NCBI GenBank assembly: GCA_023667395.1
Contig: JAMPAC010000018.1
Span: 1-51,085 of the forward strand
DNA length: 51,085 nucleotides
Source: Blautia sp.
Lineage (GTDB): Bacteria; Bacillota; Clostridia; Lachnospirales; Lachnospiraceae
Direction: 5' to 3'
Numbering within the stretch: position 1 is the first letter of the stretch; each line of letters opens with the position of its first letter. A model generated the notes under the pieces. It made no database searches and was not told where the DNA came from. It saw nothing but the letters and a program-made list of their open reading frames with translations. Both the position numbers and the translations under genes were made by a program. Shown in pieces: positions 18,661 to 20,707 of the stretch.

Positions 18661-19860
18661 TTATTGACGCTGTTCATCACGCAGCAAGTCCCATAAACGT
18701 ATTTCAACATAATCAACAATGATACTATCCAATTTTGAGGTGATTTCAAATGCATACCCATCAATAAACGTTTCGCTGCTGGCTATCTGAGCGCCCACCA
18801 GATTGGGACAATCATAAAAAGCATAGGACTGTATTTCTTTGACGCTGGCCGGCACGATAATAAACTCTAAACTACTGCAGCCGCTGAAAGCATCCTTCCC
18901 TATCTTTGTAACGCCATCCGATATCGTTACATTCTGCAGGCTGGTGCAGTCATGAAATGTTCCCGAACTTATCTCTGTCACACTACCGGGTATTGTTATA
19001 CTTTTCAGGCTGCTGCACCCATTAAACGCTCCTGAATGTATCATTGCCCCTGAACATATCTCTGTCACACTATCTGGTATCTCTATATTTTTTAAACTGG
19101 CACAGCCGGAAAATGCACTATCCCCTATCACTGTCACACTGTCCGGTATCTTTACACTTTCCAGATCAGTGCAGCCGTAAAATACAGCACGTTCTATCTC
19201 TGTCACACCATTCGGTATCTCTATACTTTTCAGGCCGGTACAGCCAGAGAATGCACTCTCCCCTATCACTGTCACGCTGTCCGGTATCTCTATACTTTTC
19301 AGGCCGGTACAGCCATAAAATGTACGCTCTCCTATCACTGTCACGCTGTCCGGTATCTCTATACTTTCCAAACTATCATGACAGCCTGCAAATGAGCGGT
19401 CTCCTATGCTTGTCACACTATCCGGTATGACTATTTTTTGCAAGTTCTCCGCATTATGATATAGCGTTATCCCCGTTACATAATATGTTTTCAAGCCATG
19501 CGTAACCTTTGACGGAATCTCAGCTATTGTAGTGCCCTCTTTGACCCCTACTACACACACCTGATCGCCACCAATTCTTTCATACCTTGCATACATAATT
19601 GAATCGCTTGTAAAATTCCCTGCCAAAAAGAACTTATATATCACTATACACAAAAAAAGCAGTAAAACAGTCCCTGCTGCCCCGACGATGAGTAGCTTCT
19701 TTTTATTTCCCGCCCGCTTTATCCTGTTTTTCTTTTCCTTATTTGCTTTTTCCCCATTTGTCTTTTCCTTGCCCGCCGTTACGGATTCTACCTCTGCCCC
19801 GCATTTCGGGCAAAACCTGTCATTTTCTGACAACTCGCTGCCGCATTGTCCACAAAACAT
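18661..19860 (-). CDS. Membrane LRR (BspA-type) protein with cytoplasmic zinc ribbon
   Basis: This 399-residue protein starts with a zinc ribbon (CGQC near residue 3 and CPKC near residue 17), has a basic linker and a single membrane helix (about residues 55-78), then about ten BspA/LRR_5 repeats (about 125-390) of the kind LKSIEIPDSVTVIGESAFSGC. The likely topology puts the zinc ribbon inside and the LRRs outside the cell, where BspA-type repeats bind other proteins or surfaces. I start at ATG 19860, which has GGAGGAGAGG upstream; the frame is open further upstream. Its promoter lies in a segment flanked by inverted repeats next to a serine recombinase, so expression may be phase variable. 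Confidence 0.85.
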   Translation of the reverse strand: MFCGQCGSELSENDRFCPKCGAEVESVTAGKEKTNGEKANKEKKNRIKRAGNKKKLLIVGAAGTVLLLFLCIVIYKFFLAGNFTSDSIMYARYERIGGDQVCVVGVKEGTTIAEIPSKVTHGLKTYYVTGITLYHNAENLQKIVIPDSVTSIGDRSFAGCHDSLESIEIPDSVTVIGERTFYGCTGLKSIEIPDSVTVIGESAFSGCTGLKSIEIPNGVTEIERAVFYGCTDLESVKIPDSVTVIGDSAFSGCASLKNIEIPDSVTEICSGAMIHSGAFNGCSSLKSITIPGSVTEISSGTFHDCTSLQNVTISDGVTKIGKDAFSGCSSLEFIIVPASVKEIQSYAFYDCPNLVGAQIASSETFIDGYAFEITSKLDSIIVDYVEIRLWDLLRDEQRQ

Positions 19861-19879
19861 AACCTCTCCTCCTTGTATT

Positions 19880-19905
19880 TGGCAAAAAAGTGTACTTTTT
19901 TGCCG
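19880..19905 (+). repeat. Left inverted repeat, candidate recombination site
   Basis: TGGCAAAAAAGTGTAC followed by TTTTTTGCCG. It is a near-palindrome (two 11-base arms around GT) and matches 24 of 26 bases of the repeat at 20062-20087 in the opposite orientation. It lies in the leader of the LRR gene, 8 bases upstream of the ribosome-binding site. Confidence 0.85.
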
Positions 19906-20073
19906 AAGATCATCAGATTTCAACAGTCAGTATACTATTTTCCCATTTGGATGTCAACTTGAAAAGCTTTCTTTATATATTCCAGACCCTATTTCGTTAT
20001 ATTACACACTGCGTAACGGCAATCATGGCATAACTGCGACATAAATATATATGACGCCCATCGGCAAAAATGT
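19894..20073. other. Candidate invertible promoter segment (about 180 bp)
   Basis: The segment is bounded by the two inverted repeats and lies between an LRR gene and a serine recombinase gene. It contains no ORF and one strong minus-strand promoter aimed at the LRR gene. If crossover occurs at the central GT (19892-19893 and 20074-20075), this stretch would flip and the promoter would then point into the 3' end of the recombinase gene. Inversion is inferred, not seen. Confidence 0.75.
19929..19957 (-). promoter_or_regulatory. Promoter inside the invertible segment, facing the LRR gene
   Basis: On the minus strand, TTGACA (19952-19957) and TATACT (19929-19934) are separated by exactly 17 bases, a near-perfect sigma-A promoter. 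Transcription would start near 19922, pass through the left repeat and reach the LRR gene at 19860. It is the best promoter match I see in the surrounding region. Confidence 0.85.
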
Positions 20074-20087
20074 ACACTTTTTTGCCG
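20062..20087 (-). repeat. Right inverted repeat, candidate recombination site
   Basis: On the minus strand it reads CGGCAAAAAAGTGTAC followed by ATTTTTGCCG, with the same central GT as the left copy. It ends two bases from the recombinase stop codon (stop at 20090-20092). Two positions differ from the left copy. Confidence 0.85.
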
Positions 20088-20089
20088 TT

Positions 20090-20707
20090 TTATTTTTCAG
20101 GCGAAAAGGTGGCATTTTGGTAAACCTTTGCTCTGTATCGGAAACTGGAAACCGCCATCCCGCATTCCCCTGCCGCCTCCGCATTCGTCAGTTTCCCTGC
20201 TGCCCATCTCTGATAGACTTCACAGAAATTATCGGGCAGCGGTTCCGGCGGCCGCCCGAATTTTACCCCCCTAGCCTTTGCGGCTGCGATGCCCTCCGCC
20301 TGTCTCTGCCTGATATTCCCCCGCTCGTTCTCTGCCACAAACGACAGCACCTGCAGCACAATATCCGACAGAAATGTCCCCATCAGATCTTTCCCCTTCC
20401 GGGTATCCAGCAGGGGCATATCCATCACGACAATGTCCGCCCTCTTGACCTTGGAGATAATCCGCCACTGCTCGATGATCTCCTCATAATTCCTGCCAAG
20501 CCTGTCAATGCTTTTTATGTAAAGCAGGTCGTCTTCCTCCAGACACTTGATCAGGCGCATATACTGGGGGCGTTCAAAGTCTTTTCCCGACTGCTTATCC
20601 AGAAAGATATTTTCTCCCGGTACAGCCATTTCTTTCATGGCCGCCATCTGCCGATCCTCGTTCTGATCCCGTGAACTCACCCTGACATACCCATATACTC
20701 TTTTCAT
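20090..20707 (-). CDS. Serine site-specific recombinase (resolvase/invertase family)
   Basis: This 205-residue recombinase has the resolvase/invertase fold: YVRVSS with the catalytic serine near residue 11, DRLGRN with the active-site arginines near residue 70, the [18 protein letters not shown] long helix, a KFGRPP linker and a C-terminal helix-turn-helix (about 155-200, with [23 protein letters not shown]). The length and layout resemble Hin/Pin-type invertases and Tn3-type resolvases. I use ATG 20707, which has GGAGG 7 bases upstream; the ATG six bases earlier is too close to that site. A pair of inverted repeats follows its stop codon immediately, so I infer that it recombines those sites. 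Confidence 0.9.

Follow-up and report, generated by a model that had tools for sequence, protein, structure and literature searches.

The question raised by this locus is whether two inverted near-palindromes, which lie between a serine recombinase gene and a gene for an LRR protein, enclose a promoter that the neighbouring enzyme can flip, and to which branch of the serine recombinases such a switch would belong. The window, that is the whole stretch of 51,085 nt of the Blautia sp. contig JAMPAC010000018.1 that was analysed, contains the features listed in Table 1. From the sites, the promoter motif, a flipped sister allele, the coupling of recombinases to sites and the matching inverted overlaps, all of them seen in the sequences, we consider it highly probable that the locus is a self-contained promoter inverton, flipped by the adjoining recombinase and switching an LRR surface protein.

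Table 1. Coordinates of the recombinase, the switch and its target gene in the window.
Feature	Position	Strand	Basis or remark
Small serine recombinase, 207 aa (PF00239), Sin/Tn552-resolvase branch	20090..20713	-	S13 and the two R of SIDRLGRNY conserved
Left recombination site	19880..19905	none	near-palindrome, centre GT at 19892-19893
Right recombination site	20062..20087	none	near-palindrome, centre AC at 20074-20075
Invertible segment, 180 bp between the central dinucleotides	19894..20073	none	inverted in L090/L147
Promoter TTGACA-17-TATACT towards the target, ON in this assembly	19929..19957	-	sequence unchanged in the flipped relative
Target gene, 399-aa protein: N-terminal zinc ribbon, one TM helix, BspA-type LRR_5 repeats	18661..19860	-	profile matches, model
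AAGGAGGAGAGG, ribosome-binding sequence ahead of the target gene, not part of the invertible segment	19863..19874	-	read directly

The sequence-only reading of this DNA had pointed to two 26-base repeats in opposite orientation that share a central dinucleotide. Both are present and agree at 24 of 26 positions, and each is nearly palindromic. The promoter motif claimed for the minus strand was also found, running from 19957 to 19929 and matching the consensus at 11 of 12 positions. As had been noted, the recombinase gene stops two bases from the right repeat (its ORF starts at 20713, 20707 being an inner ATG), and the LRR gene begins with an ATG at 19860, preceded by AAGGAGG and located outside the repeats. 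Too strong, on the other hand, was the statement that the enclosed segment is free of ORFs: two plus-strand ORFs (19688-20044 and 20051-20674), both mechanical ORF calls, reach into it, and so does the TTG-extended form of the LRR frame. The arrangement is that of a promoter inverton, with a promoter, called by its match to the consensus, between inverted sites and ahead of a gene. This promoter is the best of three promoter-like matches in 1.2 kb, while shuffled sequences average 1.8 matches at ≥9 of 12 positions.

A chance origin of the sites is ruled out by shuffles, by a genome-wide pattern search and by the site pairs of relatives described below. With up to 3 mismatches allowed, the 24-mer site pattern occurs in two places in this 4.43-Mb genome (94% complete), both of them the sites in the window, and no third copy was found with this pattern; the reversed control pattern gave 0 matches in the same 4.43 Mb. 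A related site pattern matched once in the window and in none of 100 shuffles.

The opposite orientation, which the earlier reading had expected to see in a related genome, is present in a Lachnospiraceae MAG (JAMPFQ010000028.1; locus L090, the same contig as G118:C20, L114, L147 and L265), whose recombinase is 99% identical to that of the window. Segment and promoter are reversed there, and the breakpoints fall within the repeats. A full-length alignment of the inner segment (157 bp, 82% identity) is obtained only in reverse, with a score of 180 versus 17 in the same orientation and a best score of 24 in 200 shuffles, and the outer flanks, comprising the 3’ end of the recombinase gene, the outer half-sites and the LRR start, are collinear with the window. 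Since the reversed segment carries the identical promoter sequence, the promoter in L090 points at the 3’ end of the recombinase gene, which is the orientation predicted for the OFF state. Owing to substitutions in the inner half-sites of L090, a comparison of these half-sites does not discriminate between exchange points within the 26 bp. Codon 53 of its LRR gene is an in-frame stop, so that L090 does not count as a straightforward OFF allele of a functional gene, and its OFF orientation may be a relic. The window and L090 represent different species, and the opposite orientation is thus one observed between species. An assembly artefact is unlikely, as both copies lie within contigs of about 51 kb and their inner segments have diverged to the extent given above. 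The same comparison revealed a block of the window (20061-22207) that is 99.1% identical to L090, while the long surrounding blocks are 88.9-92.5% identical. It contains the recombinase gene, a short AAA_14 fragment and a YoeB/YefM-type toxin-antitoxin pair, and reflects either recent exchange or strong conservation.

The palindromes could instead be transcription terminators or operator sites, with the recombinase acting elsewhere. On the plus strand the right site does have a terminator-like score (hairpin and T run), and such a role could coexist with a switch by ending OFF-state transcription before the recombinase gene; yet it is the single terminator-like match found, and shuffles give 0.9. 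We reject terminators or operators as an explanation and give this reading next to no credence, because the segment between the palindromes is inverted in L090 with breakpoints inside the sites. The inverted match between the centres of related sites, which terminators do not require, speaks against it as well (see below).

Pairs of such sites are common next to relatives of the recombinase. The first set comprised 161 loci, which were reduced to 125 non-redundant recombinases, and pairs were given a score that combines pair identity and palindromy. At a score of ≥25 a pair was found within 1.5 kb downstream in 40 of the 116 loci with enough downstream sequence, compared to 0/115 upstream and 0/580 in shuffles; at ≥23 the counts were 48/116, 0/115 and 4/580. 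As the threshold had been chosen with this set in view, the same test was then applied without change to 88 further loci, of which 85 remained after L178, L239 and L261 had been removed as duplicates or as already contained in the first set. Here a score of ≥25 was reached downstream in 15/81 loci, upstream in 0/85 and in 0/405 shuffles, and a score of ≥23 in 23/81, 0/85 and 1/405, respectively, leaving 58 of the 81 loci without a pair at the lower threshold. Within 1.5 kb upstream no pair reached 23 in the 115 and 85 loci of the two sets, and one reached 22. Two loci of the first set with sites above threshold but unlike the core (L078 and L099) were removed, which reduced the 48 pairs to 46. 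Of 131 labelled rows (125 from the first set, 2 plasmid and 4 viral), 46 have a pair, 20 have a downstream motif site and no pair above threshold, 52 have no site and 12 end too soon. The window’s own branch consists of 12 rows, 10 with pairs, 1 at a contig end and 1 (L013) called single, despite which a motif scan reveals two sites there. On the recombinase tree the presence of a downstream pair does not form one clade (31 changes, mean of 37 after shuffling, 8/500 shuffles as low), and a single gain is therefore unsupported.

In a control with direct repeats, 12 of 117 loci also scored ≥25.5; in ten of these the direct score comes from the near-palindromic pair itself, read in the opposite sense, and in two (L078 and L094) from an unrelated repeat. 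The orientation of near-palindromic pairs was settled by their centres in the centre-blind selection described below. A scan of IMG/VR with the promoter core yielded 0 matches. Four recombinase relatives from IMG/VR have no pair, but three of them end before the downstream stretch, and the phage relatives L173-L175 have no pair at ≥23. Sites are spaced 94-527 bp apart in the 46 pairs, mostly 94-231 bp. Two loci with 98.5% identical recombinases and the same orientation, L038 and L046, differ in spacing (527 vs 107 bp), a gap that we take to be an insertion or deletion inside the inverton. In a one-contig genome two convergent recombinases with 76% identity flank one 158-bp inverton (L240 and L252, G459:C1:1976514-1982935).

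In 40 of the 46 pairs the first site starts ≤50 bp from the recombinase stop, which argues that each enzyme serves its own switch. The switch might be real and nevertheless be flipped in trans by another recombinase of the genome, for example those of C134, C179 or C132. Further homologues with 66%, 64% and 35% identity are indeed encoded in the same genome, one recombinase serves many sites in the Mpi system of Bacteroides, and the whole-locus scan detected a pair of the same motif 3.5-4.2 kb upstream, not behind the recombinase, in L049, L051, L088 and L097; these distant pairs may be a remote target of the enzyme or the site of another one. The close coupling of first site and stop, the restriction of the window’s site to two places in the genome and the fact that the modules of C179 and C134 own pairs with different flanks nevertheless make flipping in trans improbable, and we retain the adjoining recombinase as the enzyme of this switch.

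The centres of the sites carry a more specific signature. In the scored set of 69 pairs (46 and 23 from the two sets) positions 13-14 match in inverted form in 69/69, compared to 32-63/69 for other positions that are equally variable between loci. Shuffling of partners gave a mean of 29.6 centre matches and at most 41; with GT and AC treated as one kind, the mean was 43.8 and the maximum 53. Four kinds of centre occur, 54 GT/AC, 9 AG/CT, 5 AT and 1 AA/TT. Because the first selection had scored both centre and orientation, pairs were rechosen blind to both, using the 24 arm positions only and the better of the inverted and direct alignments at a score of ≥22. This yielded 44 loci in the first set (38 with inverted match, 5 symmetric, 1 without match) and 22 in the second (21 inverted, 1 symmetric), hence 59 inverted, 6 symmetric, 1 without match and 0 direct among 66 pairs. 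The row without match is L098; under the earlier score a different first site is chosen there, and the centre of that site matches. The segment shared by L240 and L252 is counted twice in the 69 and in the 66 pairs and was dropped from the count of orientations. Judged by sequence, inverted matching centres point to a 2-bp overlap that both sites share in matching orientation, as used by small serine recombinases. Pairs with the symmetric centre AT should permit deletion too.

Promoters are enriched in the enclosed segments. A match of ≥11 of 12 positions was found in 10 of 46 segments versus 9/920 shuffled ones, and of ≥10 in 21 of 46 versus 99/920. These 21 promoters are aimed at the target side in 8 cases and at the recombinase in 13. 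The remaining 25 of 46 segments have no promoter at ≥10/12, among them those of two other modules of the window’s genome, whose best match is 8/12. Inner segments could be aligned in 17 pairs of loci, 8 in opposite and 9 in the same orientation. The opposite pairs are not independent, as 6 of 8 derive from the comparison of L007, L033 and L034 with L035 and L037; the remaining two are L113/L147 and L155/L236, and alignments in opposite orientation other than L113/L147 span mostly 34-66 bp. L033 and L037 are followed by the same kind of helicase gene and their promoters are opposite in direction, and the cut frame behind the switch in L035 begins like this helicase.

The difference between the window and L090 might also go back to a one-time inversion that became fixed between two species, at a locus that no longer switches. 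The sole full-length flipped pair is one between species, and the LRR gene of one of the two has an in-frame stop. We nevertheless regard a fixed inversion as very improbable, since the recombinase frame is open with its catalytic residues kept, the sites in the window are near-perfect and both orientations recur among other species, if in partly dependent pairs.

In the mechanism that we propose for an active promoter inverton, the recombinase would bind both 26-bp sites as dimers, cut at the central GT/AC dinucleotides, both steps as expected from its family, and flip the 180-bp segment. In the ON orientation the enclosed promoter would drive the zinc-ribbon/TM/LRR surface protein, whose ribosome-binding site would stay outside the flipping segment; in the OFF orientation the promoter would face the 3’ end of the recombinase gene and leave the LRR gene without promoter. 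It is presumably the recombinase of the window that does the flipping, reversibly within one strain, and the promoter is presumably active.

The enzyme matches PF00239 with 1.3e-26, and S13, R11, R71 and R74, which we take to be its active-site residues, are invariant in 30 chosen sequences. C-terminal helices were found at positions 163-202 of the model (mean pLDDT 85), so that the protein has the catalytic domain with Ser and Arg and the C-terminal DNA-binding helices of a small serine recombinase. The sequence-only reading had drawn a parallel to Hin/Mpi-type invertases, but the enzyme is closer to resolvases of the Sin/Tn552 type than to invertases of the Gin type or to the Mpi model. Among solved relatives the best by sequence are Sin (2r0q, 2.9e-29), Tn3 resolvase (3.7e-18) and gamma-delta resolvase (1.7e-17), followed by DNA-invertase entries (3.7e-15 and 7.6e-15). 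Foldseek E-values likewise place Sin at the top (7.3e-13), ahead of gamma-delta (1.7e-12) and Gin (2.9e-5), while the TM-score reverses the top two (0.64 for gamma-delta, 0.48 for Sin); Hin/Gin DNA invertases are not the closest relatives by sequence or by Foldseek E-value. With the model of the Mpi family (NCBIfam NF009949) the recombinase scores 42.6 bits versus a curated cut-off of 272, and in a search of the whole genome the best score was 46.4 bits, with nothing above the cut-off. A recombinase with 52% identity on an Enterococcus plasmid adjoins a Mu-type transposase, and one copy of the same site, AAAAGT-AC-ACTTTT, lies 188 bp before the start of the recombinase match; a second plasmid relative (L168) is without matching site. 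Taken together, this suggests that the recombinase descends from transposon resolvases. Relatives with E ≤ 1e-60 are carried by 103 of 397 sampled genomes of the window’s family, one of them with six copies.

The protein behind the switch was scanned in 30 of the 46 loci, in addition to that of the window, and Pfam domains were matched at 1e-4 in 26 of these 30 proteins. In some loci another frame precedes the scanned one; in L015, L043, L046, L058 and L064, for example, the latter lies 0.5-1 kb from the site. LRR_5 proteins were found in L015, L038, L039, L043, L046, L064 and L087, glycosyltransferases in L007, L084 and L098, CpsB in L154, a polysaccharide deacetylase in L153, an MBOAT acyltransferase in L148, a cohesin protein in L103, helicases in L033 and L037, a kinase in L069 and an Eco57I-type methylase in L080. 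By their position, the genes downstream of the site pairs are candidates for control by the switch. Two more modules of the window’s genome, L143 and L144 (G000:C179 and C134), precede a dynamin-type GTPase and an AMP-ligase, respectively, with no promoter above 8/12 in either segment. TnpB-like genes with a Cas12f1-like TNB domain are located directly behind the inverton in L055 (3789-5093, TNB match slightly below the Pfam cut-off) and L091 (5823-7217), and may represent a phase-variable RNA-guided nuclease or a transposon insertion. In L152 (1367-4000) a TIR/TPR/RCC1-repeat protein follows the inverton.

The target protein in the window matches Zn_Ribbon_1 (9.8e-9) and LRR_5 (2.8e-92), and its TM helix is modelled at residues 58-79. 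It had been regarded as an unusual phase-variable product, but it is not a one-off. With at most the best 13 candidates scored per genome, homologues at E ≤ 1e-40 occur in at least 18 places in at least 14 of 138 genomes of the genus; the four best among the matches listed (window, G118, G070 and G053) all adjoin such a recombinase with its site pair; within the flanks examined this holds for no further place among the other 14 listed. In L039 and L046, too, a zinc-ribbon LRR gene lies behind a switch, though it is missing from the homologues listed.

The Hin flagellar switch with its hix sites in Salmonella and the Gin, Cin and Pin phage inversions use inverted 26-bp near-palindromic sites with a 2-bp centre. 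The locus resembles these systems in that a small serine recombinase lies beside inverted sites, with a promoter or gene segment as the part to be flipped; it differs in that the recombinase gene is located outside a segment of no more than 180 bp, and in that sequence and fold scores are better with Sin and gamma-delta than with Gin. Mpi of Bacteroides is a serine recombinase that flips many scattered short promoters ahead of surface genes. A short promoter-only segment ahead of a surface gene is common to both, whereas here one recombinase is found with one site pair and its score falls far below the Mpi cut-off. Sin, the closest solved relative by sequence and the top Foldseek hit, acts at res sites with site II and HU (PMC2428073), and one title in its reference list names inversion by the beta recombinase. 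The window differs from the Sin system in having two bare inverted sites downstream of the recombinase, inverted 26-mers with no obvious second element. Invertible DNA in Clostridia has been tied to neighbouring recombinase genes in a defined gut community, where tyrosine-type recombinases are named for the Clostridia-rich inverton group 139 (PMC11892184, main text); the word serine occurs 0 times in that main text, whereas the enzyme in the window is a serine recombinase. Among open-access papers, judged by title and opening of the abstract, we found none on serine-recombinase promoter switches in Lachnospiraceae; Jiang et al. 2019 may have examples.

In our reading these loci form a family of promoter invertases that act locally and are widespread in gut Clostridia. 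The mechanism proposed for the window is very likely; it follows the known switch logic of Hin and Mpi on another enzyme branch, probably with one enzyme per switch. We lean slightly towards the reading that a Sin/Tn552-type resolvase lineage has turned into one-enzyme-one-switch promoter invertases in gut Clostridia, whose cassette, in the order recombinase, site, promoter segment of ~150 bp and site, would stand ahead of many unrelated genes and need no site II. Overlap dinucleotides that differ between cassettes could keep the switches of one genome from crossing, and would be a natural means of testing how cross-talk between such switches is avoided. If the switches are active, sequence would allow the phase variation of surface genes and capsule genes to be predicted in gut bacteria of this kind.
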